Shown here: in pieces, positions 47,111-60,795 of the stretch
Position numbering within the stretch: the first letter of the stretch is position 1
Layout of the letters: each line of letters starts with the position of its first letter
Source: Planctomycetaceae bacterium
Lineage (GTDB): Bacteria; Planctomycetota; Planctomycetia; Planctomycetales; Planctomycetaceae
DNA length: 64,000 nt
Direction of reading: 5' to 3'
Assembly: GCA_019636285.1 (NCBI GenBank)
Contig: JAHBXV010000013.1
Span: forward strand, 1-64,000
Notes under the pieces: model-generated
The model's input: the letters and a program-made list of their open reading frames with translations, nothing else
Database searches by the model: none
Told to the model about the DNA's origin: nothing
Program-made: the position numbers and the translations under genes

Positions 47111-47316
47111 TGCGGAAAGCCCAAAGCTGAGAGCCAGAAAAGGCTCGCAATTGCCAGTGCTCCGTCAATGTCAAAGATTCGGGTGTGTGCGACTGGCTCC
47201 GCCAGTGCGTCTTAAGTCTTTCATCCACAAAAAGATGCACTGGCGGAGCCAGTGGCACACGAAAAATCAAGCCCTGACGGAACACTGGTCTGGCTCTCAG
47301 CTCTTGGCTTTCCGCA
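47111..47316. repeat. 206-bp nested palindrome containing family 1 copy D
   Basis: The core is a 78-bp family 1 repeat (47184-47261). Outside it, further arms pair: TGCGGAAAGCCCAAAGCTGA at 47111 with the reverse complement of the segment ending at 47316 (2 mismatches over 28 bases), and CCAGTGCTCCGTCA at 47154 with TGACGGAACACTGG at 47275 (1 mismatch over 14 bases). Confidence 0.8.
47184..47261. repeat. 78-bp palindromic repeat, family 1, copy D
   Basis: Exactly 78 bp. The left arm has a one-base change (GCGACTGGC for GCCACTGGC), and the right arm is canonical. The loop matches copy A on the opposite strand. Confidence 0.85.
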
Positions 47317-49416: not shown

Positions 49417-50100
49417 ATGCTTGAGATGTCTCCGCTGCTGGACGGACTGGGAACCGCCATTTATGCCATGCAGGCCTACACGGCCATCCATGGATTGTTC
49501 CTGGTCGTGCTGACGATCCGCCGCGTGGCCCAGAAGCGGTTTGGCAGCAACGCGGCGGCGAACGGGTTCCTGGCGGAAGTGGGCGAACCCCTCCAGACCG
49601 GCCAGCTTGAGGCCGCCGCGGAAATCTGCGATTCCCCCGCCTACTGGGCCAAAGCGACGCCGCAACTGCTCCTTGTCGCGATTCAGAACCGGACGCTGCC
49701 GGGGCCGAAACTGCGGGAACTGGTGGCCGAACGGTTCGACCGCGAAATTCTGGCCGACCTCGACTACCGCATGGCGTGGATGAACACCCTCGTCAAAACC
49801 GCCCCCATGCTCGGACTTCTGGGAACAGTCGTGGGGATGATCGCCGCGTTCGGAAAAATTGCCACCAGTTCACGAACCGGCGTCGACCCGACAACGCTCG
49901 CGAACGACATCAGCTTCGCCCTGTTGACGACCGCGATCGGACTGACAATCGCCATTCCTCTCGTCATCGCGGGGGCCGCGATTCAGGTACGGATTGGCCG
50001 GTTGCAGGACAGCGTTCAGGACCAGCTTGCGTGGTTGCTGCCGCGCGTGGAACTCGCCGCCCGTGCTGGAAACCGTCCCGTCGCGACATCCGATCGCTGA
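49417..50100 (+). CDS. ExbB/TolQ-type proton channel protein
   Basis: 227 aa. It has the three-helix ExbB/TolQ core: the N-terminal helix (AIYAMQAYTAIHGLFLVVLTI), the second ([23 protein letters not shown], with the GLLGTVVGM hallmark) and the third (ISFALLTTAIGLTIAIPLVIAGAAI with a conserved threonine). No signal peptide is added, unlike the orphan at 9841. It begins the seven-gene cluster with an ExbD gene 29 bases after its stop. AGAGAAG lies before ATG 49417. Confidence 0.94.
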   Translation: MLEMSPLLDGLGTAIYAMQAYTAIHGLFLVVLTIRRVAQKRFGSNAAANGFLAEVGEPLQTGQLEAAAEICDSPAYWAKATPQLLLVAIQNRTLPGPKLRELVAERFDREILADLDYRMAWMNTLVKTAPMLGLLGTVVGMIAAFGKIATSSRTGVDPTTLANDISFALLTTAIGLTIAIPLVIAGAAIQVRIGRLQDSVQDQLAWLLPRVELAARAGNRPVATSDR

Positions 50101-50129
50101 TTATCTAATCTGCACGAGGTCTCACGGAC

Positions 50130-50588
50130 ATGCCTGTCACACGGCGAACCGGTGAAATGACTGGAGCGGCCGCGCGCAGGCGTCGTCTGTCGGGAGGGGA
50201 ACTTGACCTGACACCGATGATCGACGTGACGTTTCTCCTCCTGATTTTCTTCATGGTGGCGTCGACGATGCAGAGCACGCCGAGCCTCGATCTTCCTCCG
50301 GCCGAGAACTCGCGAGGCGTGGAGTCGGCCGGGGCCATCGTGATCACCGTGTTGGACGGAGGGGCGGGTCCGGCGCGACTCATTCTGGGCGATGGGCGAG
50401 GAGCGGAAGGGACGTTGGAACAGATTTCGGACTACGTCGCAGAGGGTGTGGCAGCCGGAAAGCGCCGGGTCATCCTGAAAGTCGAGGGAGACGTTCCTTC
50501 TGGAACGGTTCAGGAGGTGACCCGTCGCGTGACAAAAATTGATGGGATTGATCTCTACCTGGGAGTTGGCGAAGCCCGTCAGAGATAG
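50130..50588 (+). CDS. ExbD/TolR-type protein
   Basis: 152 aa. A short basic cytoplasmic head is followed by one membrane helix with the key aspartate (Asp32 in PMIDVTFLLLIFFMVAS) and a periplasmic domain ending in VTRRVTKIDGIDLYLGVGEA. ExbD couples proton passage through ExbB to conformational work in the periplasm. It follows ExbB directly. A second ExbD-like protein is encoded 138 bases later. Confidence 0.95.
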   Translation: MPVTRRTGEMTGAAARRRRLSGGELDLTPMIDVTFLLLIFFMVASTMQSTPSLDLPPAENSRGVESAGAIVITVLDGGAGPARLILGDGRGAEGTLEQISDYVAEGVAAGKRRVILKVEGDVPSGTVQEVTRRVTKIDGIDLYLGVGEARQR

Positions 50589-50725
50589 ACTGACCGAGAC
50601 ATTTTCGTTTCCGATTCGCGATTTCGGCCTTTCGGCCCAGACAATGATTTTCATGCAACTGAACTGACAGATGGAGTGAACGAAGGACCGCCGCATGTCG
50701 TGATGGTCCTTCCGGGAAGTGGTTC

Positions 50726-51484
50726 ATGCCGATTCGATTTCGCTGCGAAGACTGCGGAAGCCTGATGAGCATCTCGCGACGCAAGTCGGGGCAGTTCATC
50801 CCTTGCCCGGCGTGCGGCGCCCAGACTCGTGTTCCTGATCGGCAGATGCCATCGCCCGACGAGGCTGACGATGAGCGTTCCCCAGATATTCCGCCACAAG
50901 TCGAAGCCGACAGCCCCCACCTCGACGATTCGGATGCTGCTGAACGAGCAAATAAAATCGCTCTCGTCGCGGATACTGTCGATCCCCAAGCGACGGATTG
51001 GCCCGAGTCAGCGTCCGACACGGACGATGAAGATAGCGACCAGATTCCTTGGCGACGGCGGCGCCAGCCCGAAGAGGATCTCGACCTGACAGCGATGGTC
51101 GACGTGGTGTTCCAGTTGCTGATTTTCTTCATGGTCACCGCCTCGTTTACCATGCAGAAGTCGATTGAAATGCCGTCCTCGGATGAGCCGCGGCAGGGGG
51201 CTGCGCCCGTCCTGGTGACTCTGGATGAACTGGAATCGCGCGCCTCGATCGTGCGGATTGAGGCGAGCGGTCAGATTTTGGTCGATGATGATCCTCTGCC
51301 CCCGGGACAATCGCTTAAGGAGTTTCTCGAGGTAAAGATGTCGGGAAGCGGTCGCCGCGAGCTGATTGTCGCCGCCCACGACGCGTCTCCGCACTACCTG
51401 ACTGTCGAAGTCGTCGATACGGGGAATTCGATCGGCGTCGAGCGAATTCGCCTGGCTCGTTTCCAAGCCACCGCGGATCAATAA
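50726..51484 (+). CDS. Zinc-ribbon-ExbD fusion
   Basis: 252 aa. The first 31 residues form a zinc ribbon with Cys7-X2-Cys10 and Cys27-X2-Cys30 (RCEDCGSLMSIS, FIPCPACG). An acidic linker of about 80 residues (DEADDERSPDIPP..., DTDDEDSDQ) leads to a basic patch RRRRQPEEDLDLTAM, then the ExbD helix with Asp126 (MVDVVFQLLIFFMVTASF) and a periplasmic domain (DDPLPPGQSLKEFLEVKM). The zinc end would be cytoplasmic. Planctomycetota commonly put such zinc ribbons before membrane domains, but joined to ExbD it is unusual. GGGAAG precedes ATG 50726. Stop lies 114 bases before the FHA gene. Confidence 0.9.
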   Translation: MPIRFRCEDCGSLMSISRRKSGQFIPCPACGAQTRVPDRQMPSPDEADDERSPDIPPQVEADSPHLDDSDAAERANKIALVADTVDPQATDWPESASDTDDEDSDQIPWRRRRQPEEDLDLTAMVDVVFQLLIFFMVTASFTMQKSIEMPSSDEPRQGAAPVLVTLDELESRASIVRIEASGQILVDDDPLPPGQSLKEFLEVKMSGSGRRELIVAAHDASPHYLTVEVVDTGNSIGVERIRLARFQATADQ

Positions 51485-51493
51485 AGGTTTCAA

Positions 51494-51564
51494 ACACAAC
51501 CTCTGCGCAACGAGTGAGCTGTCCGGTTCTCCATAGATTTTTTTACAGGCACAACCGGTTGTGT
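51494..51564. repeat. 71-bp palindromic repeat, family 2, copy 2
   Basis: ACACAACC at the left and GGTTGTGT at the right are perfect inverted arms. The left CACAACCTCTG and the right ACAGGCACAACCGGTTGTGT are shared with copy 1 at 29745. It lies between the second exbD-like gene and the FHA gene. Confidence 0.7.
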
Positions 51565-51598
51565 CAGGGGCTTTGAGGCTGCTGGAGCAACGTTCGTC

Positions 51599-54500
51599 AT
51601 GGCGAGACTGGAAGTTCTGCGAGCGGGACAAGCGGCTCAGTTCCTCGAGCTGACCAAGTCGCAGTCCGTCTCGATTGGCAGCCAGTCGTTCAATGACATC
51701 GTTGTCAGCGACCCCTCGGTCGGACCGATGCATTGCCGCATCATCTGGATGCTTACGGCCTATGAAGCCGCGGCGGCCACTCCGGCGGGAATCGATGTCA
51801 ATGGGCATCTCATCCAGTCGCGCAAGTTGGAAGATCGCGACGTCCTCCGCGTCGGCAATGTGGATGTGGTGTTTCACGCTCGTCGCGCGAGTGAACCTCC
51901 CGCCCCAGTCCCCGCGGAAGCCGCGCCGGTCCGATCGAAATCGCGCGGGGAAGCAAAACCGGCAGAGCCAGCACCGGCCGACGAACCGTCGCTCTACGAT
52001 GGTCCGGTCTGGAGTGATGCCGAGTTACCGGCCCTGCCGCAACGTCGCGGCGAACGACCTCCGCCGCCTCCGAAACGATCGGAGATCCTCCAAACGATCG
52101 ATCGAGAGCTTTCCGCGGGTCGATCGCGTCCGGGCGAACAACAGGCCTTTCGTTCCAAGCTGGTCCTCGGGCTTGGCATTCTGGCCGTGTCACTGATGGT
52201 CGCCGCGGCGACGTTCGCCTTCCTCGTGTCGCGGCAATCTGCCGACAAGCTGTTCGCCCGGGCGGAGGAAGAAGCCGGCGCGGGCCAATGGACGACCTCC
52301 GCCACCAGCTTCGAAGAGTTTCTGAAACGCTACCCGCGCGAATCCCGGAGGGCCGTCGCCGAACGACGACTGGGCGAACTGGAAGTTCTGCGGGAGATTC
52401 GAGGTTCGGTACCCGCCTGGGAACGTGGGTTCTCGCGTCTCCAGGCCCATATGGCCGATCGCCGCGCCGCGAACGATCTGACGGCCGCCGGCCCACGGAT
52501 CGCCGAGTTTGCCGAAGAAATCGCGCTGGGAGCCGCACGCGCCGCCGAGGTCAATGAATCCTCCGAACTGCTGGAAATCGCCGAGCGGGCCCGCGTGCTG
52601 CTCCAGCGGCAATTGACGGCCAGCGACCAAACATCGACGGCCGACCAGCGAATCGCCGCCGCGGTACTCAAGGCGGAGCGCGCCATCGTTCGTCGGAAGA
52701 CGCTCGACGAATCACTGGAGGAGATGCGCGCGGCTCTCGCGGACAAGGATCCCTATCGCGCCTTGCAAATCCGTCTGGATCTGCTGACACGCTATCCCGC
52801 GTTGTCGACGAACAAGGATTTGACAGGGCTCGTCGAGGAAGCGATGACGGCGGCTCGCACCTCCATCGAAACGACTCCCGATTTCAAGCTGGAGCAGCTT
52901 GAAGTCAGCGAAGCATCGTCGACACCGGGCTCCTCCTGGATGACGCCGGTCCTGGTGGCCCGTGTGCGGAGCGATCAGGCTTCGGAGGGTCGGGTCGTGC
53001 TCGGAAGCGCGGCCGATCAGATTCTGGCCATCGATAGCGAAACGGCCCGACCGCTCTGGAAGCACAGCGTTGGAGAAGCCGGCCTCCCATTTCCGGCAGT
53101 CATCCCGACCGTCGATGGGAACGACGTCCTGCTGTTTCATGCGGGCGAGGCAATGCTGTCGCGCGTCCGAGGGCTGGATGGTCAAGCACTCTGGCGCAGC
53201 CAGCTAACATCACGCCCGCGGGGACGACCCGTGGTCTATCGCGAAACGGTCTACCTGGTAACCGATCAACGAGAACTCCTGGCCATCGATGCGTCCTCGG
53301 GCAAACTCGTGCAGCGGCTGGTCTTTCCGGTCAACCTGGTGGGAGAGCCCGCCATCGACTCCGACGGTGAAGGGCTGTTCGTGGTCGCCGAGTCGTCCGT
53401 GGTCTATTCGCTACGGCGAACTCCCCTGGAAGCGACGGCCGTCACGTTCACCGCCCATGCCGCTGGTTCGGTCAGCGTCAGCGCGCTTCCGATGGGGGCG
53501 CTAGTCTTACTCTGCGAGAACGATCGCCTGGAAAGTTGTCGGCTGCGCGTGTTACGGCGAGAGTCTCTTGAAACACCACTGAAGGAAGAAACCGGCATTC
53601 GCGTGCGGGGGCAGGTGCGCGAACCGCCTGTTCTGCGCGGCCGCCAGTTGGTGCTCTCGGCTGGCGAAGAACGACTCTATGCGTTTGCGGTCACCGATGA
53701 CCCGGGGAGCACCGGACTCGTGGAGACGGGCCGCTATCAACTTCCCAGTGCCGCGAACCTGCCGACGAATTTGTCCCTGGGGCCGGACGACCAGTTCTGG
53801 TTTCAAAGCAATGGACTGCGGCGTTTCCGGCAAGAGGGCAATAGTCTCGCGGTCGTGTCCGACCCCATCGCCCCCGGAATCGCGGTGCAACCCCTGCAAA
53901 TGGCGGGCGAGCGGTACTATGTGGGCCGACGTCCGCCCCATTCCTCGGGAATCATTCTGTCGCAGGTCGAGCGCGACGCGATGATTAGCCCCTGGCGGGT
54001 TGCTTTCGGCAGCCGCATCACGGCGTGGCTCCCGGCGGCCAATGGCGGCATCCTCACCATCAACGATCAGGGGCTGCTGACGGTCCTGAGCGAGACGCAT
54101 CTGGAACGGAGAGGTTTTGACACAACGTCGATTCGCGAGCTGAGTCTTCCGGAAGAAATGATCGGAATGCTCGCCGCCTGCCCGACCAGCCCCGGCAGCC
54201 TCGCGCTCTGGTTTCCGTCAGCCAGGCAGTCGCGGGTCGATGTCTTCGACACGACGGGACGCGTGACGGCGTCGCACATCCTGAAAGAACCGGCCCGTGT
54301 TCCGCCAGTGGTTCACGAGAGTGGCATCTGGATCCCCACCAAAGAGGGGCTCACGCTTCAATTGCCGTCGGGAGCCACCCCCGTCCTGCCTTGGGCCGCG
54401 CCGCCGGGCGCGGACGGTGAGGCGTGGTCCTGGCAGTCGCTGGGTCGAGCGGGTGAAGGAGTCCTCGCGATTAACAACCAGGGCCTGATGATTCGCCTCG

Positions 54501-55039
54501 GCCTGGCGAAGGACGAACCTCAACGGCTGTTTGAAACCGCTCGATTTGACGGCAATGAGCGTGTTGTCGACGTTCATCAAACCGACGACAGCGTCATTCT
54601 CCAACTTGCCGACGGAACCGTCCATCTGCTTGACAAAACCTCTCTGCAACGGGTCGGGGGACGCTCCTCGGAAAAGCCGGCTCGGCAAACCTGGATCGTC
54701 GGCGATTGGCTCCTCGTCCGGACCGATGAGGAACTGGAACTCTGGCAGCGGGGTCAGGAGCTCCTCCCCGGTTGGATTCAGCCCTGGTCGGCCCACGACA
54801 TTCGCCCGAATCCGGTGATTCATGGCCAATCTCTGCTGATCGGGTTGGGAGATGGCCGCGTCATGGCGGTTCGCCTCGATACGGGAGAACCAGTTCCCGA
54901 GTCGTCGCGATCGCTGGGTCAGAAAATCGACAGCCTCGTGGAAATCACACCAGGCAACGTGCTCGCGATCGGACTTGATGGAGCCGTCCTGCGATTGCCC
55001 CTTGCCCCGCGGGCCACCCAGCCGGAGGTCCAGCAATGA
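51599..55039 (+). CDS. FHA-domain membrane protein with large periplasmic beta-propeller
   Basis: 1146 aa. Residues 1-95 form an FHA-like domain (VSIGSQSFNDIVVSDPSVGPMHCRI, then VNGHLIQSRKLEDRDVLRVG). Two phosphothreonine contacts look lost (Arg of GR is Ser28, Ser of SxxH is Gly42). A Pro-rich linker leads to one membrane helix (VLGLGILAVSLMVAAATFAFLVSR, near 200) and about 900 periplasmic residues. These include a helical segment (FARAEEEAGAGQWTTSATSFEEFLKRYPRE) and PQQ-like propeller repeats (VLGSAADQILAIDSETARPLWKHSVG, LLAIDASSGKLVQRLVFP, YAFAVTDDPG...). A tyrosine- or cysteine-free active site is not visible. Stop overlaps the next start (ATGA). Confidence 0.85.
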   Translation: MARLEVLRAGQAAQFLELTKSQSVSIGSQSFNDIVVSDPSVGPMHCRIIWMLTAYEAAAATPAGIDVNGHLIQSRKLEDRDVLRVGNVDVVFHARRASEPPAPVPAEAAPVRSKSRGEAKPAEPAPADEPSLYDGPVWSDAELPALPQRRGERPPPPPKRSEILQTIDRELSAGRSRPGEQQAFRSKLVLGLGILAVSLMVAAATFAFLVSRQSADKLFARAEEEAGAGQWTTSATSFEEFLKRYPRESRRAVAERRLGELEVLREIRGSVPAWERGFSRLQAHMADRRAANDLTAAGPRIAEFAEEIALGAARAAEVNESSELLEIAERARVLLQRQLTASDQTSTADQRIAAAVLKAERAIVRRKTLDESLEEMRAALADKDPYRALQIRLDLLTRYPALSTNKDLTGLVEEAMTAARTSIETTPDFKLEQLEVSEASSTPGSSWMTPVLVARVRSDQASEGRVVLGSAADQILAIDSETARPLWKHSVGEAGLPFPAVIPTVDGNDVLLFHAGEAMLSRVRGLDGQALWRSQLTSRPRGRPVVYRETVYLVTDQRELLAIDASSGKLVQRLVFPVNLVGEPAIDSDGEGLFVVAESSVVYSLRRTPLEATAVTFTAHAAGSVSVSALPMGALVLLCENDRLESCRLRVLRRESLETPLKEETGIRVRGQVREPPVLRGRQLVLSAGEERLYAFAVTDDPGSTGLVETGRYQLPSAANLPTNLSLGPDDQFWFQSNGLRRFRQEGNSLAVVSDPIAPGIAVQPLQMAGERYYVGRRPPHSSGIILSQVERDAMISPWRVAFGSRITAWLPAANGGILTINDQGLLTVLSETHLERRGFDTTSIRELSLPEEMIGMLAACPTSPGSLALWFPSARQSRVDVFDTTGRVTASHILKEPARVPPVVHESGIWIPTKEGLTLQLPSGATPVLPWAAPPGADGEAWSWQSLGRAGEGVLAINNQGLMIRLGLAKDEPQRLFETARFDGNERVVDVHQTDDSVILQLADGTVHLLDKTSLQRVGGRSSEKPARQTWIVGDWLLVRTDEELELWQRGQELLPGWIQPWSAHDIRPNPVIHGQSLLIGLGDGRVMAVRLDTGEPVPESSRSLGQKIDSLVEITPGNVLAIGLDGAVLRLPLAPRATQPEVQQ

Positions 55040-57447
55040 AAGCCCTGCGACCGTATTGCGGGATGCTCGTGCTCCTCGGCCTGGCGCGGATTGTCGCGGC
55101 CCAGCAGCAGGAGCCCGCGCCCAATGAAGTTCCGGGCGTTCCCATTTCAAATGAAGAACAGGGTTCGGCCCCCAAATTCGAGTCGCTGTCGCTTCCCTCG
55201 GCGGAAGTGCTGCTCGCGGAGCCGCCGGTCGACTGGGTGGTTCTCATCAATAGCGATACCCACTTCGTGGAACCCGTGCAGCCACGACCCGACACCGTGG
55301 CAAAGATGCAAGCCGCGCACGAGGCCAGCCTCCAGTGGCCCAAGCCTCCCAACGAAGCCGACGCTCGCGAACAGCAGCGTCGGCGCACGCAACTCCTCAA
55401 GCTCCCCATCACGCTCCTGGCGGCGGATATCGACCCCGAGTACCAGGTCGATATCAAGTACGTGCAAAAGATCGTTCATTACGAAGACCTGATTCTGCAA
55501 CGAGTGGACGAACGAATCGCCGCGGCGGATACGGCCACGACGTATCGCCTGTTGCGCGTGATCGAAGAGCGCGATTCGAACTGGCCGGGCGCGGAAGACC
55601 GGCGCCGCGCCCTGATCTCGCTCGAAGCCGATCTGGCCCTGCGAAACGGCCGACTGGAAGACGCGCTGCGATGGCTGGAGGTTCTAGCCGAGCGCGATCG
55701 CGAGTACAGAAACCTGAAGGAACGTGCCGGGACCGTCGCGGACAGCCTGATCGCGGCGGCCGTCGCGGAGAATGACTTTCGCCGCGCTCGACACTTCCTG
55801 GCTCGCTTGTCAGCGATCTTTCCTTCTCATTCGGTTGTGGAACAATGGACGGCCCGCCTTTTGGGACAGACCCGTGCCCTGCTGGACGACGCCTCGCGAG
55901 CCACGGAGGCCAGTGATTGGCGCGCAGCCGCCGACCTGGCGTTTCGCGCGAGCCGAATCTGGCCGGCGACACCGGGACTCATGGAGAGGCATCGCGCGGC
56001 CGCCAATCGTTGGCCGGTCTTGCGAGTCGGCGTGGTCGATCATCCTTCGGCCGATCGAGATTTGGAACGTTGGGCGCGATTGCGGGAAGTTCGGCTGTTC
56101 GAGCCCGTGGCATTCGCCGATGGCCGGTTGCGATACCGAAGTCGCGTCGTCGCCGACTGGGAACCGCTTGATCTCGGGCGACGACTGGATTTACGTCTGC
56201 GCGCTACACCAGCGCCGTGGGAGTCCAGGGATTCGCTCACGGCCCTCGATGTGGCCACGACCATCCGATCAGCCGCCAATGGATCGACATCCGAAAGTTC
56301 TGTCTCGGGTCCATGGATCGACGGTCGAGTCTCGGAAGTCGTTTCGAGCATCGAGGTCTCATCCGTGGATTCGGTCTCGATCCGCTTTCGCCGCGCGCCG
56401 TTTCGGCCCGAGGTCATGCTGGGCCTCCCCGTCATCGATCATACCGGCGCTCGCATCAGTCAGTCGTGGCTGGCTTCGACGGCAATCTCCGGGCAACCGG
56501 CCTTCATGAGAACGGTTCCCGAATCGCCCGCCGACGGAAACCGACATGTGGCCGAAGTCATCGAGACCAGCTACCCGGAAACCGACGCGCTTTTGCAGGC
56601 ACTGACACGCGGCGACATCGACATGGCGGCAACCCCCGCCTGGAAAGATTTACCCCGGCTGGAAGAGGACTCGCGTTATTACCGGGTTCAACTCGCCGTC
56701 CCGGCGGTGCATGTCGTCGTGTTTCATCCCGAGAGCGTGCCATTGGGAAATATCCTGCTGCGAAAATCGCTGCAAATGTCGGTTCCCCGGGGAGAGGTCT
56801 TGCGGGACGCCCTGCTGGCCGACGCGAACCCCGCGTACGGTCGCCTCGTCAACGGTCCGTTGCCGCGTCAGCATGCGGCCTATCATCGTGTGCTGGAGAT
56901 GCCAACTTACGACCCGCTGGTGGCCGCCGCGCTGGCTCTCACCGCGAAGAAAGAACTCGGAGAAGCCTGGCGACCGCTACGGCTGGAAGTCCCGCACGAT
57001 CCACGACTGAGGGGTGTCTTCGAACAGTTGCAGGAGAATTGGAAGCGCGTCGGGATTGAGGTAACCCTGTCAGAGTCTGGCGCTGCGGGCGAACCCCCGG
57101 ACATTTCGTATCGAGTCTTACGGACCTGGGAACCATTGATCGACTTCGCACGACTGCTGACGTTCGATCCCTCCGTCAGTCCCGCCGGCCTGTCACGGCT
57201 GCCGGAGGCGCTGCGAACGCCCTTGCGGCAACTGGAATTGGACGCTGACTGGGCGGGCGCGGTCCGCACTCTGCAATTCATTCAGGAAGCCGCCCTCGCG
57301 GATGCCCGTTACCTGCCGTTGTGGGAAGTCGACGAATTCCTGGTTGTCCGGCGGAATGTCTTCAATCTGCGAAGCCCGCCGCTCTGGACCTATGACGGCG
57401 TCGAGCAATGGCTGATCCGTCCCTGGTATCCGACGGAGACGCCATGA
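55036..57447 (+). CDS. Family 5 solute-binding-like protein with helical N-terminal extension
   Basis: 803 aa. A signal peptide (CGMLVLLGLARIVAA) is followed by about 330 residues of helical, TPR-like sequence (RRALISLEADLALRNGRLEDALRWLEVLAERDREYRNLKE, FLARLSAIFPSHSVVEQW). The rest follows the SBP_bac_5 fold (RVGVVDHPSADRDLERW, TRGDIDMAATPAWKDL, VVFHPESVPLGNILLRKSLQMSVPRGEVLR, GVFEQLQENWKRVGIEVTL, ARYLPLWEVDEFLVV). Usual family members are 500-600 aa and work with permease and ATPase genes, which are missing here. Start ATG 55036 overlaps the FHA stop; the end overlaps the next start. It should be a periplasmic or surface protein. Confidence 0.8.
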   Translation: MKALRPYCGMLVLLGLARIVAAQQQEPAPNEVPGVPISNEEQGSAPKFESLSLPSAEVLLAEPPVDWVVLINSDTHFVEPVQPRPDTVAKMQAAHEASLQWPKPPNEADAREQQRRRTQLLKLPITLLAADIDPEYQVDIKYVQKIVHYEDLILQRVDERIAAADTATTYRLLRVIEERDSNWPGAEDRRRALISLEADLALRNGRLEDALRWLEVLAERDREYRNLKERAGTVADSLIAAAVAENDFRRARHFLARLSAIFPSHSVVEQWTARLLGQTRALLDDASRATEASDWRAAADLAFRASRIWPATPGLMERHRAAANRWPVLRVGVVDHPSADRDLERWARLREVRLFEPVAFADGRLRYRSRVVADWEPLDLGRRLDLRLRATPAPWESRDSLTALDVATTIRSAANGSTSESSVSGPWIDGRVSEVVSSIEVSSVDSVSIRFRRAPFRPEVMLGLPVIDHTGARISQSWLASTAISGQPAFMRTVPESPADGNRHVAEVIETSYPETDALLQALTRGDIDMAATPAWKDLPRLEEDSRYYRVQLAVPAVHVVVFHPESVPLGNILLRKSLQMSVPRGEVLRDALLADANPAYGRLVNGPLPRQHAAYHRVLEMPTYDPLVAAALALTAKKELGEAWRPLRLEVPHDPRLRGVFEQLQENWKRVGIEVTLSESGAAGEPPDISYRVLRTWEPLIDFARLLTFDPSVSPAGLSRLPEALRTPLRQLELDADWAGAVRTLQFIQEAALADARYLPLWEVDEFLVVRRNVFNLRSPPLWTYDGVEQWLIRPWYPTETP

Positions 57448-58859
57448 TGACGGGTCATATCCTCGGGACTTTCAGAATCGCGGCGCTGTTGGCCATCTCC
57501 CTCGAACCAGCCACGACATCCGCCGCGGAATTTGGCCTCACGCCGGTTTCACTCGCGGTGGAATGGTCCTGGGAGGGAATGAGAGAAATTCCCGAATCGC
57601 GGCGACGTGAGTTGGAAGCCGATTTCCGGCAACTGGCCCGGCGCACTGGCGGACCAGCCATTTCGTGGCATGAAGGACCGATCGAAGACGCGAGTGATGA
57701 ACTAGTCCTGTTTCACATTTCCGTGTCGCCCGCCGATGTCGGCGTGTCGTTCCAACTGACACTCAACGATCGGCTGACGCCAGCGAATCGTCCCGTGCTG
57801 ATCGAGCATGTCGGAGACCTCGCGGATCTGCCGCGAAAGGCCATGCGGAAGATGCTGCGGCTGATGCCGCTTCGCGCCAGACTCAGCGAACTGTTTGACG
57901 AGCGTGCGGTGCTCGAACTTCAGGCCGGAGAACTGGCCTGGGGCGATCCGGAACTGGATCCCCTGCCCAAAGGAGGCTATCTCCAGCCATTTCTCGTGCT
58001 CCGCGATCGCGACGGTGTGCTGAAATCGACCCGGCCGATTCCCTGGACGTGGTTGCGCGTGGAAAGCCGCGATGGCGGACAACTGACCTGCGAGATTCTG
58101 TCGGGCATTCGCCAGTCACTTAACGCCCGACAGCGGGGACGCGTCGAAGTTCTGGCCGTTCGCGTCGACCCGACGTGGTGGCCCGGTGGGACAGTCGTCC
58201 ATGCTTGGCGCCTCTCCGATCCGCCGCGTCCCTGGGGCCTCCTGGCGGTCGACCTCCGGCAAGACGAACCGGCGAGCGACTCCGAAAACCCGGCCTCTCC
58301 GCCACGGAGTTTTCTGGCCGATCGCGATGGTCGCATCTCAATCTCTGCCGCATCGGGAGGCATTGTCTGGCTGACGGCCCAGAGCGGCGCGCAGAAACTT
58401 GCCCGTGTGCCGGTTCTCGCGGGGAGCATTGACGAACTGCGACTGGAACTGCCCGATGACAGTCCGCGGCTCGCCGTCGAAGTGGCCGTTAAATCGCTCG
58501 AACAAGATCTCGTTGTGACAGTCGCCACCCGCGCGAGCCTCGTGGCGGCAGCCAGGCTGGCCGCCAAGGCCGAACGCTGGACCGACGTCGATCGCCTGCT
58601 TGATCGCCTTTCAAAACTGCCGACGGCCAAGGTCTACCGAGACCGCCTGAACGGACTGCGAGTGAATGGCTTGCAAGTCGCCGACGATCGTAAAGATCGA
58701 CTGGGTCGCGCGCGGATCGAAGCCCTGTGCCGCCAGATGGGCGAGACGATCGACCGCTACCTCAATGACGATCCACTCCGTCAGTTGCGCGAGGAGCTGA
58801 GCGAATTGCGGGCAGCCAGTTCCAACGAAACGCCGGCCAAGGCACCGCCAAAGCCCTGA
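57444..58859 (+). CDS. Exported protein of unknown function in the ExbBD cluster
   Basis: 471 aa. A signal peptide (TFRIAALLAISLEPATTSAAE) precedes a mixed alpha/beta chain. Motif-like stretches are VEWSWEGMREIPESRRRELEADF, PADVGVSFQLTLNDRL, LELQAGELAWGDPELDPLPKGGYLQPFLVLRDRDG and LAVDLRQDEPASD. The last 120 residues are helical with LLDRLSKLPTAKVYRDRLNGL. I recognise no family. Its ATG at 57444 overlaps the preceding stop (ATGA), so it belongs to the same translational chain; a second ATG at 57447 is equally placed relative to GGAG. The gene ends 143 bases before the DUF11-like gene. Confidence 0.7.
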   Translation: MMTGHILGTFRIAALLAISLEPATTSAAEFGLTPVSLAVEWSWEGMREIPESRRRELEADFRQLARRTGGPAISWHEGPIEDASDELVLFHISVSPADVGVSFQLTLNDRLTPANRPVLIEHVGDLADLPRKAMRKMLRLMPLRARLSELFDERAVLELQAGELAWGDPELDPLPKGGYLQPFLVLRDRDGVLKSTRPIPWTWLRVESRDGGQLTCEILSGIRQSLNARQRGRVEVLAVRVDPTWWPGGTVVHAWRLSDPPRPWGLLAVDLRQDEPASDSENPASPPRSFLADRDGRISISAASGGIVWLTAQSGAQKLARVPVLAGSIDELRLELPDDSPRLAVEVAVKSLEQDLVVTVATRASLVAAARLAAKAERWTDVDRLLDRLSKLPTAKVYRDRLNGLRVNGLQVADDRKDRLGRARIEALCRQMGETIDRYLNDDPLRQLREELSELRAASSNETPAKAPPKP

Positions 58860-59002
58860 TCGAAAGGAATAACGGCTCCCCCTGAACCGGCGAAATCGGC
58901 CTTCGCGCGATTTGCCGAACCTGCTAAATCTGGGAGACCTTGGAGGGGAGCGGGGGGACTCATGGTCGCCTCGCCGTTAGTTGTGCATGGAAGGCACCAG
59001 GC

Positions 59003-60676
59003 GTGAAGTCCCGGTTTCTGCGGCTGATGTGGCGCGAAATTCGTCGCGATCTCCCGCGGCCGTTCCGGCAATTCTGGGACGATGTGGCCGGTTTTTTCGG
59101 CTGGATCACGCTTCACTGGCTGCGTTTCCGCCGCGCGCTCCGCAACTCTCCGGAATGGTACTTTGCCGTCAGCTTCGGCTTTCTGGGCCTGGTTCTGACG
59201 CTGCTTCTGTTTCTGTCGCTGCCGAGCGATCCGCCGGTTGAACAGGCGGCTCTCGTCACCCTGGTCGATCTGGCTCCCCCCCCGAACCCCGACGACATCG
59301 ACAGCCGACTGGCTCATTGGGAAGCAGCCCTCGTTTCCGTCGATCGTTCGATCCCCATCGAAGTCCTGGACGGCCCATCGATGCTGGCTCGCGATTACTC
59401 GCGAGAACGAGTCTCGCCATTTGAGAACTGGGCTCCCGAACCGGAACGTCTCAGGCCGACCCCTGTCGACGATGACCCCTTCGCGAACTGGCAAGTTCAG
59501 CAACCTGCAACGAGTCCCGATCTCGACTTTCTTGCGGAATACGTGGGGCTCAAGTCTCTGCCGGCCATCCCTCGACTCGGTGCGCCGTCCACGCAAACTG
59601 CTGCCAGCAGTCTGACCCAGCCATCGGGCATCACGTCCGTCGGAAGAGAAGAACTGGCGGATCTCGGTAACTGGAGCGCCACCCGCTTCGTCGCTCGTCC
59701 CGCCACGGTTCAGCCCATTGGCTATGCGGAACGAAACTTCGCCAAGTCCGGCGAACTGGCTCCCGGCTGGGACGACGACGCGGCCACCGACATTCCTGGC
59801 TCGCAACCGTCGCACGCGGAAATGGCGCTCCGCATTCAGGTCGATGCTCCCTCTCAGGCCAACCAGTTTTCCCGACACCGTTCAAAGGTGCTGATTGAGA
59901 ACCGCGGCGACACGCCGCTGAGCACGGTCCGCATTCTCGAACCTCTCGCCCATCTGGAAACCGTCGTCGACGCCGTTCCCCCCGCGCGTGTGACCGACCA
60001 GTCTCTTGAGCGGGAACTCTGGAACGTCGCCCCGGATGCCACGGAAGATGTCGAACTGGAATGGATCCCCCAGCGGGACCAATCGCTGATGCACTCGGTC
60101 CTCGTGGCGGCCAGCACTCAGGTATCAACGACGACTCAAGTCGGACCGGCGGACCCCATCGCGGCTCGCGAACCCGAGCCCGTTCGCGTCCCACAGCCTC
60201 TTCCCGACCTGCAACCACGGCAATTGCTACCCGGCCTCGCTTGTCGGCCCGAGTACACGGCGCGCGTGCCGCTGAACGGCGTTTGGGAAATGAACATCCT
60301 CGTGTCCAATACTGGTGAGGTGGAATTGACTGATGTCCGAGTCCTGGCCGCGGTCCCTAACTCGCTGCTCCATCGCCACGGCGCGCTGGTGGAATGCCCC
60401 GTCGGCCGACTGAGTCCTGGAGAGTCGCGAACGGTCAAGTTTCGGGCATTGGCAGACCGTGTCGGAATGGCCGTCAGCCAGTTGGTCGTGATCTGTGCCG
60501 AAAACGTCTCGGCTGTCGAAAGTGCCTCGACCGAGATCGTCACTTCAATGGCTCAGCCGTCTCGCGGGGGGCTCTCGCAGGACGGCTGGATCCCGCGCCG
60601 CGTCTCACGCCGCACGTTGCCCGCCGACTCATCGGGCCTCCTAGTCGACTCGCGACCGGTCGTCCATCGGCCGTAG
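59003..60676 (+). CDS. Membrane protein with DUF11-like domains
   Basis: 557 aa. A basic cytoplasmic head of about 50 residues (FLRLMWREIRRDLPRPFRQF) leads to one membrane helix (WYFAVSFGFLGLVLTLLLFLSLP) and a long periplasmic part. A Pro/Asp-rich stalk (residues 80-300) precedes two Ig-like domains: LRIQVDAPSQANQFSRHRSKVLIENRGDTPLSTVRILEPL and GVWEMNILVSNTGEVELTDVRVLAAVPNSLLH, with GRLSPGESRTVKFRALA, the DUF11-type signature. Such domains occur in cell-surface proteins. GGAAGG lies eight bases before GTG 59003. It closes the cluster. Confidence 0.82.
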   Translation: MKSRFLRLMWREIRRDLPRPFRQFWDDVAGFFGWITLHWLRFRRALRNSPEWYFAVSFGFLGLVLTLLLFLSLPSDPPVEQAALVTLVDLAPPPNPDDIDSRLAHWEAALVSVDRSIPIEVLDGPSMLARDYSRERVSPFENWAPEPERLRPTPVDDDPFANWQVQQPATSPDLDFLAEYVGLKSLPAIPRLGAPSTQTAASSLTQPSGITSVGREELADLGNWSATRFVARPATVQPIGYAERNFAKSGELAPGWDDDAATDIPGSQPSHAEMALRIQVDAPSQANQFSRHRSKVLIENRGDTPLSTVRILEPLAHLETVVDAVPPARVTDQSLERELWNVAPDATEDVELEWIPQRDQSLMHSVLVAASTQVSTTTQVGPADPIAAREPEPVRVPQPLPDLQPRQLLPGLACRPEYTARVPLNGVWEMNILVSNTGEVELTDVRVLAAVPNSLLHRHGALVECPVGRLSPGESRTVKFRALADRVGMAVSQLVVICAENVSAVESASTEIVTSMAQPSRGGLSQDGWIPRRVSRRTLPADSSGLLVDSRPVVHRP

Positions 60677-60702: not shown

Positions 60703-60780
60703 TGCGTGCCACTGGCTCTGCCAGTGCATCTGTTTGTGGCTGGTCAATTCAAGGGACACTGGCGGAGCCAGTGGCACACG
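60703..60780. repeat. 78-bp palindromic repeat, family 1, copy E
   Basis: Exactly 78 bp. The right arm is canonical (CACTGGCGGAGCCAGTG) and the left has one change. The 25 bases before it (CTGTCAATCT..., ACACGGGTG) resemble those before copy D. The Shine-Dalgarno of the next gene lies right after its end. Confidence 0.85.
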
Positions 60781-60795
60781 ACAGGAGCCCGAACG

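Follow-up and report, generated by a model that had tools for sequence, protein, structure and literature searches.

What work does an ExbBD-type proton motor perform when the genes beside it encode neither TonB nor an outer-membrane receptor? The question is raised by a run of plus-strand genes at positions 49,417 to 60,676 of the window, by which we mean the whole stretch of 64,000 nucleotides analysed here (Planctomycetaceae bacterium, GenBank assembly GCA_019636285.1, contig JAHBXV010000013.1, positions 1 to 64,000). A first-pass annotation, made from the letters alone, had read seven genes as one unusual ExbBD system. All seven open reading frames (ORFs) are present on the plus strand at the positions and lengths claimed, Pfam E-values uphold the domain calls for ExbB, the two ExbDs, the FHA and propeller parts and the solute-binding-like protein, and the idea of an unusual ExbBD system proves genuine for six of the seven genes:

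49417..50100, plus strand: ExbB/TolQ-type proton-channel subunit (ExbB), 227 amino acids (aa); PF01618 (MotA_ExbB), E 5.5e-22
50130..50588, plus strand: ExbD1, 152 aa; PF02472, E 9.7e-15
50726..51484, plus strand: ExbD2 with a zinc-ribbon head, 252 aa; PF02472, E 6.7e-21
51599..55039, plus strand: FHA/propeller protein, 1146 aa; FHA, E 1.2e-6; PQQ_2/BamB-like propeller, E 9.8e-17
55036..57447, plus strand: solute-binding-like protein (SBP), 803 aa; SBP_bac_5, E 1.1e-15
57444..58859, plus strand: the protein labelled UNK, 471 aa from the ATG at 57444; 0 Pfam matches

Comparison with other genomes strongly supports these six genes as a conserved unit with its own motor. We consider it probable that they encode a proton-driven force machine of the Tol/Ton type, acting across the envelope and found so far in one planctomycete class.

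Conservation of the six-gene unit

Two sets of homologous loci were compared. For the SBP-anchored set, up to 20 kb were fetched around all 33 SBP matches, and adjacency counts in this set exclude the window locus (32 non-window loci). The c4-anchored set consists of the best 80 of 104 loci from a scan of a genome collection for c4, a protein family encoded upstream of exbB, and leans to conserved cases. A locus entered an adjacency count if it contained the gene and, next to it, the neighbour or 1 kb or more of room. Some genomes are represented in both sets (e.g. L055 and L137); they were removed only in the residue, head-pair and junction-overlap counts. ORFs begin at the first start codon, and the N-termini of UNK, SBP, the FHA/propeller protein and some ExbD2 proteins may be overlong.

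The SBP is matched in 33 of 40 genomes (the window's included), at one place each. The window's family (f1) accounts for 24 of these, out of 25 genomes, and the rest of the class for 9, out of 15. Across 149 phylum-wide genomes, its profile finds matches in 119. They are near full length only in the sample's eight genomes of the same class, presumably Planctomycetia to judge by the names of c4-bearing genomes (E 1.4e-186 or better); among the matches listed, those in other genomes begin no earlier than profile position 263, that is, in the ordinary SBP domain. All but three of the 80 c4 loci are titled as planctomycetes, including Blastopirellula marina DSM 3645 (L155) and Thalassoglobus neptunius (L117).

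The six genes from ExbB to UNK are complete in 20 of the 32 SBP-anchored and 39 of the 80 c4-anchored loci. Five of the 12 incomplete SBP loci lie at contig ends (L042, L051, L056, L058, L061), six are without exbBD beside the FHA gene (L041, L062, L063, L065-L067) and one is without UNK (L054). Adjacent pairs of the six genes are kept in 91-100% of testable loci. In the SBP-anchored and c4-anchored sets, respectively, the counts are 21/21 and 59/59 for ExbB to ExbD1, 21/21 and 58/58 for ExbD1 to ExbD2, 21/21 and 50/52 for ExbD2 to FHA, 29/31 and 49/50 for FHA to SBP, and 29/32 and 44/45 for SBP to UNK; upstream, c4 to ExbB is kept in 19/24 and 57/78. The misses include uncorrected artefacts of ORF picking, namely frame breaks in L046 and L097, overlong frames in L065 and L053, and tandem c4 genes in L127, L172 and L175. 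Because the six-gene order recurs in many other genomes, chance is excluded as its cause. The earlier proposal that the last four genes belong beside exbBD stands for the FHA gene: exbBD lies beside it in 21 of 27 loci of the SBP-anchored set and in 50 of 57 of the c4-anchored set, and the SBP and UNK genes nearly always follow it (UNK after SBP in 29 of 30 and 44 of 45 by this second count). The proposal falls for the seventh gene.

Three overlaps of stop and start codons had been reported for the window, of which two are found in the sequence:

55036..55039, plus strand: ATGA stop/start overlap, FHA gene to SBP gene
57444..57447, plus strand: ATGA stop/start overlap, SBP gene to UNK gene

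The third does not exist, as UNK stops at 58859 without an ATGA. Overlaps of the ATGA, GTGA or TTGA kind, in the correct frame, occur at 31 of 75 distinct homologous FHA-SBP junctions and, of the same kind, at 38 of 70 SBP-UNK junctions. In the window, exbD2 and the FHA gene are 114 bases apart. A sigma-70 promoter scan returned one site, with 1.6 expected, and was uninformative.

The motor subunits

Residue conservation was counted over distinct homologues, with duplicates across locus sets removed by sequence identity. The channel threonines T137 and T172 of ExbB are each kept in 78 of 78 homologues, and the transmembrane aspartate D32 of ExbD1 in 81 of 81. The corresponding aspartate of ExbD2, D126, is kept in 74 of the 75 homologues with a residue there, three more being gapped. 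From general knowledge of ExbBD, TolQR and MotAB we take these four residues to be the proton path, and the Thr and Asp residues expected of a TonB-ExbB-ExbD motor are present. ExbB scores 44.2 bits against the curated ExbB equivalog TIGR02797 (cut-off 206.2) and 60 bits against the curated TolQ family TIGR02796 (cut-off 221). Since it stays far under both cut-offs, we regard it as a member of the superfamily that belongs to neither named system. The presence of one ExbB and two unlike ExbDs suggests a heterodimer within a pentamer.

Exchangeable heads on ExbD2 and the propeller protein

Both ExbD2 and the FHA/propeller protein carry N-terminal parts that vary between loci:

50744..50815, plus strand: zinc ribbon CxxC...CxxC of ExbD2, residues 7-30, seen in the sequence
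51668..51856, plus strand: FHA domain, residues 24-86 of the FHA/propeller protein, Pfam match
L054 9661-11088; L055 5092-6711; L125 3762-5489; L127 8882-10396; L139 8798-10438; L144 11187-12827; L150 12141-13730: kinase-ExbD2 fusions
L155 12808-16149, about the first 65 residues of the propeller protein; kinases L048 13095-14669, L069 12472-13869, L088 11505-12554: LTKYQA domain (our own label)

Most loci have the zinc ribbon on ExbD2. Its Pfam matches are sub-threshold (best E 6.1e-4), and each Cys is found in 66 of the 75 distinct homologues with a residue there. We infer that this head is cytoplasmic; here and below, 'cytoplasmic', 'secreted' and 'periplasmic' are assigned by sequence inspection and family knowledge. 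In seven distinct loci, the head of ExbD2 is a Ser/Thr protein kinase in a single open frame with ExbD. The Pkinase matches in Pfam reach E 1.3e-49 (L055) and 2.2e-44 (L054), and all seven were matched in a search with the window genome's own kinase gene. All seven contain HRDxKxxN and DFG, and six the VAxK lysine (the L054 frame opens past it), motifs that we take to be those of kinases. In families f2 and f4, ExbD2 bears a GYF_2-like head that remains under the Pfam cut-off and is a hint.

The FHA/propeller protein consists of the FHA domain, a membrane helix (the top hydropathy window begins at residue 192), a weak TPR-like region (residues 219-263 give a weak ybgF match, E 0.025) and a BamB-like β-propeller. 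The position after the conserved Gly of the FHA domain holds Ser in the window and Arg in 12 of the 49 distinct homologues with a residue there, with 38 more gapped. We take an Arg at this position to be the usual phosphothreonine-binding residue, and the FHA domain of the window is probably degenerate there. The head of the propeller protein is an FHA domain in f1 and f2 and the LTKYQA domain in Pirellulales. The LTKYQA profile also matches the three Ser/Thr kinases listed above.

Among 69 distinct loci with both ExbD2 and propeller genes, a zinc ribbon goes with FHA in 32, with LTKYQA in 19 and with neither in 6; a kinase goes with neither in 7; other ExbD2 heads go with LTKYQA in 4 and with neither in 1. 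These counts include L043, whose ExbD2 is probably in the wrong frame, and L146 ('other'), which has a zinc ribbon further in. FHA and LTKYQA are both lacking in all seven kinase-ExbD2 loci, versus 7 of the 62 other loci. When the kinase label is placed on an ExbB tree (67 rows), it requires two changes, and a single origin is compatible with the data; the seven loci therefore do not count as independent events. That the main lineages carry heads with links to Ser/Thr phosphorylation is suggestive of phospho-control of the motor. These head swaps, like c4, which lies outside the window, could not be seen by the first-pass annotation.

Separate Ser/Thr kinase genes lie close behind UNK in seven loci (e.g. 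L063 13185-15557, L048 13095-14669, L068 3530-4939, L069 12472-13869). These may reflect chance and are not used as evidence.

A candidate transducer, c4, and its neighbour c8

Clustering of the neighbours of the 33 SBP loci revealed two further recurrent families on the upstream side of exbB: c4, present at 24 of the loci, and c8, present at 14. The c4 proteins are about 300 aa long, and three that were scanned match no Pfam family at E <= 0.5, TonB_C and vWA included. Two scanned c8 proteins give weak squalene-cyclase-like and HEAT matches. The window's genome has its c4 gene on another contig:

G000:C30:39790-40668: c4 gene of the window's genome

An AlphaFold2 model of this copy has a mean predicted local distance difference test score (pLDDT) of 77. 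It contains a membrane helix (residues 13-41), a linker of low confidence (residues 51-140, block means 41-62) and an ordered α/β C-terminal domain (residues 149-293), a layout predicted to be like that of TonB/TolA-type transducers. Fold searches with c4 gave a best Foldseek E-value of 0.11 and a best Z of 3.4, with a disordered linker that may have masked the domain, so that a new fold does not follow from them; a PDB sequence search gave no convincing match.

Counted back from exbB, c4 lies directly before ExbB in 19 of 21 SBP-anchored and 57 of 59 c4-anchored loci, whereas, counted downstream from c8, c4 comes next in 12 of 13 and 38 of 40. In four f2 genomes the cluster is split: c4, FHA, SBP and UNK are together (L062, L063, L065, L066), and each genome encodes an ExbB of this type at another place, accompanied by ExbD1 in all four and adjoined by ExbD2 in three (L198-L201). 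An Isosphaeraceae record (L157) likewise has c4-FHA-SBP-UNK without exbBD. The f4 genome G036 carries c4-ExbB-ExbD1-ExbD2 on one contig (L089) and FHA-SBP-UNK on another (L067), and the f4 genome G032 has c4-ExbB-ExbD1-ExbD2 and no SBP match. From these arrangements it appears that c4 accompanies either half of the cluster, as a link between motor and receiver would, and c4 is a plausible transducer. The first-pass annotation had the ExbD heads push directly on the propeller; a separate transducer is likelier, because the TonB-shaped c4 precedes exbB so regularly and goes with either half of the split cluster.

The gene also occurs in reduced settings. It stands alone in the window's genome, with c8 not beside it (L084), and alone in G001 and G024. 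Four loci titled Schlesneria have c8-c4 without the remaining genes (L124, L131, L133, L134; L123 is cut), and L145 and L146 hold c4-ExbD1-ExbD2 without ExbB. Tandem c4 genes precede exbB at L127 5743-7620, L172 7389-9215 and L175 5490-7301. The contig that carries a c4 fragment at L138 2-556 bears the title Alphaproteobacteria MarineAlpha3_Bin4; it may be planctomycete DNA that was misbinned. In L140 (7687-9749) the exbB-exbD block is divergent from c4-FHA-SBP-UNK, so that the two are transcribable apart.

The presumed periplasmic side: SBP and UNK

The SBP begins, judged by eye, with a signal-peptide-like sequence and has its family-5 domain in the C-terminal half. Its family profile matches NikA (2noo) over profile positions 379-791 (E 2.9e-23). 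The N-terminal part of about 330 residues is conserved, is without a confident Pfam match and is absent from ordinary SBPs.

UNK also starts like a signal peptide by eye. Its AlphaFold2 model (mean pLDDT 88.7) comprises a TolB-N-like α/β domain (residues 34-143), a β-barrel (143-242), a CnaB-like sandwich (248-337) and C-terminal helices, all as predicted. The top Foldseek match is FlgT 3w1e (E 9.7e-7, TM-score 0.19), and TolB 7mx5 is matched at E 4.2e-4. VIA-align superimposes UNK on TolB 6pnv (Z 8.2, 106 aligned, 2.9 Å) and on chain 0 of 8z5n, of the LPHT ring and presumably FlgT (Z 8.4, 192 aligned, residues 31-241, 8.9 Å); by the tool's own warning, Z values near 8 may reflect a common arrangement. 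The CnaB-like sandwich superimposes on 3e8v (Z 9.7, 80 aligned, 2.3 Å). The fold predicted for UNK is TolB-N-like and possibly FlgT-like. A PDB sequence search with UNK gave no convincing match, and a PHROGs search of UNK and the protein of the seventh gene gave no informative one.

Comparison with known systems

The cluster resembles Tol-Pal in its TolQ/R-type motor and its transducer-shaped c4, and the two folds of TolB seem to be distributed here over two proteins, the TolB-N-like domain in UNK and the β-propeller in the FHA protein. Unlike Tol-Pal, it has two different ExbD/TolR genes, signalling heads and an SBP component, the TolB_N family and a linked OmpA-domain gene are not found, and c4 has no recognisable TolA/TonB C-terminal domain. 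With TonB-ExbB-ExbD it shares the ExbB and ExbD families and the predicted layout of c4; it differs in that c4 has no TonB_C match and the cluster has no receptor.

Ten SBP-carrying genomes, the window's and nine others, were examined for the components of these systems. TolB_N (PF04052) was matched in none of the ten and in none of nine further genomes, seven of which have no SBP match; in a control, PF04052 was matched in 3 of 14, E. coli included. TonB_C is present in three of the ten genomes, a TonB-dependent receptor in four and neither in six; OmpA-domain genes are present in nine. The earlier statement that TonB and a receptor are missing is right for the cluster and wrong for the genome, which has one of each on separate contigs:

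G000:C33:62032-62268: TonB_C gene of the window's genome
G000:C26:31629-32972: TonB-dependent receptor of the window's genome

The vWA force transducers of the PVC group adjoin tolQ and a pair of tolR genes, and TolA/TonB-like transducers are recognised by a three-part layout of transmembrane helix, linker and C-terminal domain (PMC12204202). Our cluster is like these in its heterologous tolR pair, in the three-part transducer and in a nearby TPR protein; it differs in that three c4 proteins have no vWA or other Pfam match, and FHA or kinase heads, SBP and UNK do not figure in the accessible part of that description. The first two domains of UNK occur in series as in FlgT, of the Vibrio flagellar H ring. 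With TM-scores of about 0.2 and root-mean-square deviations of 8.9-11 Å, the domain order alone is comparable; UNK adds the CnaB-like domain and a helical C-terminus, and there are no flagellar families among the seven ORFs.

Proposed mechanism and alternatives

In the Tol/Ton-type machine that we favour, five ExbB subunits would encircle an ExbD1-ExbD2 heterodimer, and proton flow would turn or tilt the ExbD pair. The membrane helix of c4 would dock on the motor, and its flexible linker would pass the force across the periplasm to the C-terminal domain. The product of the FHA gene would be an inner-membrane scaffold, the propeller of which would form a receiving complex with SBP, UNK and c8. 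The heads on the cytoplasmic side would switch the motor on or off upon protein phosphorylation.

Several observations weigh against this mechanism. The C-terminal domain of c4 finds no match in Pfam and PDB searches, and the c4 helix has no conserved histidine within the window's family, where TolA and TonB use one. Because of these two points, docking of c4 on the motor is something we only infer. A distant c4 homologue in f3 does have a helix histidine (L090, L091, L093), like the SHLS motif reported in PMC12204202. Furthermore, exbB does not follow c4 in 5 of 24 SBP-anchored and 21 of 78 c4-anchored loci (a few being contig ends or tandem c4 genes), nor in the window's genome. The FHA gene is without exbBD beside it in 6 of 27 (L041, four f2, one f4) and 7 of 57 loci. 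No SBP match was obtained for seven of the 40 relatives (all four f3 genomes, two of three f4, and G016). As to phospho-control, most FHA domains have no Arg at the position named above and may have lost phospho-binding, and six zinc-ribbon loci are without a phospho-linked head. TolB_N is missing with and without the cluster, so that its absence lends weak support to a Tol-Pal substitute, and no Pal-like gene appears to be linked, OmpA matches being absent from the 40 kb to either side of the SBP gene.

The TolB-N-like domain, the propeller, the TolQR-type motor and the transducer-shaped protein together make a Tol-like role a candidate, a guess worth testing. The likeliest job, in which the machine would supply energised maintenance of the outer membrane or cell wall in bacteria without a recognisable TolB, and SBP would bind a fragment of wall or envelope, still seems doubtful to us; we lowered our confidence in it because SBP is missing in those seven relatives and the absence of TolB does not track the cluster. 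Tentatively, we also raise the possibility of an undescribed class of proton-driven rotary or force machine, in which the stator would be gated directly by Ser/Thr phosphorylation (in some lineages by a complete kinase within ExbD, in others by a scaffold domain of the FHA or kinase-associated type) and the outer envelope energised through a new kind of transducer, c4, and a receiver made of binding protein and propeller. Searches of one open-access library turned up no account of the cluster, nor of a kinase fused to ExbD; the nearest systems described are AglRQS-Glt (PMC3169522) and the vWA transducers (PMC12204202). The accessible main text of an essential-gene study of Planctopirus limnophila does not mention ExbB, ExbD, Tol, biopolymer or FHA (PMC10632474). 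In Rhodopirellula baltica, exbB RB12053 and exbD RB12055 are salt-induced (PMC2754498); these genes could not be mapped to the present cluster.

Planctomycetes have an outer membrane and no FtsZ (PMC5147048). How such FtsZ-less bacteria, with TolB not recognised in the 19 genomes examined, energise and organise their envelope is a question for which the cluster offers a concrete gene set. The natural kinase-ExbD fusions suggest that phosphorylation can regulate proton-driven stators.

Of the alternatives, proton-driven uptake by a Ton-type importer is the most probable and is still unlikely. Here, SBP would capture a ligand (a peptide, wall fragment or metal chelate) after an ExbBD-c4 motor had opened an outer-membrane gate. 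The SBP family profile does match NikA/DppA-type proteins over most of the domain, the SBP gene overlaps both its neighbours, and classical TonB-dependent receptors occur in only four of the ten genomes, so that another gate would be needed. However, no gene for an outer-membrane channel, ABC permease or ATPase is found among the seven ORFs, c4 and c8 (other flanking families and most flanking ORFs are unannotated), and the conserved N-terminal part of SBP is foreign to ordinary SBPs.

A regulated drive for surface motility or adhesion, akin to AglRQS-Glt, with the FHA-membrane protein pulling envelope-anchored complexes, is improbable. In Myxococcus xanthus, AglRQS is built from one TolQ-like subunit and two that are TolR-like, and its AglR interacts with the FHA-domain membrane protein GltG (PMC3169522). 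The cluster has the same composition of one TolQ and two TolR homologues, and its FHA-membrane protein recalls GltG; but GltG ends in a TonB motif, whereas the window's FHA protein ends in a propeller and has no TonB family match (other Glt proteins were not searched for), and the spread of SBP, found in 24 of the 25 f1 genomes and in 9 of the 15 remaining genomes of the class, is unexpected for gliding.

It is very improbable that the ExbBD motor is only a neighbour of, and functionally separate from, a complex of FHA/propeller protein, SBP and UNK with c4. The blocks do lie apart in the f2 genomes and G036, FHA genes without adjoining exbBD were counted above, the exb block of L140 is divergent and the window has 114 bases between exbD2 and the FHA gene, but ExbD2 and FHA are adjacent in 21/21 and 50/52 loci with room downstream, c4 goes with either block, and where ExbD2 has a kinase head the propeller protein has lost its own.

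The seventh gene and flanking features

The gene behind UNK had been read as the seventh member of the system:

58940..60676, plus strand: DUF11/DUF7507-like membrane protein, up to 578 aa; judged not to be a member

The earliest possible start of this frame is a TTG at 58940, and GTG 59003 or ATG 59028 is likelier. Its only Pfam match, to DUF7507, is sub-threshold. By tblastn it was found at none of the 32 other SBP loci (some of which end soon after UNK). Matches occur in 21 of 40 genomes, mostly near residues 430-545. The two near-full-length homologues lie far from the clusters of their genomes: in G001, which measures 7.276 Mb, at 7.265 Mb, with the cluster at 0.43 Mb (a distance of about 0.43 Mb on a circular map), and in G024 on contig C27, with the cluster on C37. 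We read the gene as a bystander.

A terminator-like stem lies at 60710, in the region of the second copy of a perfect 25-base direct repeat. The two copies, which have an inner palindrome, are at 47238-47262 and 60757-60781 of the window, 13.5 kb apart and flanking the cluster, and are possibly a dispersed repeat element.

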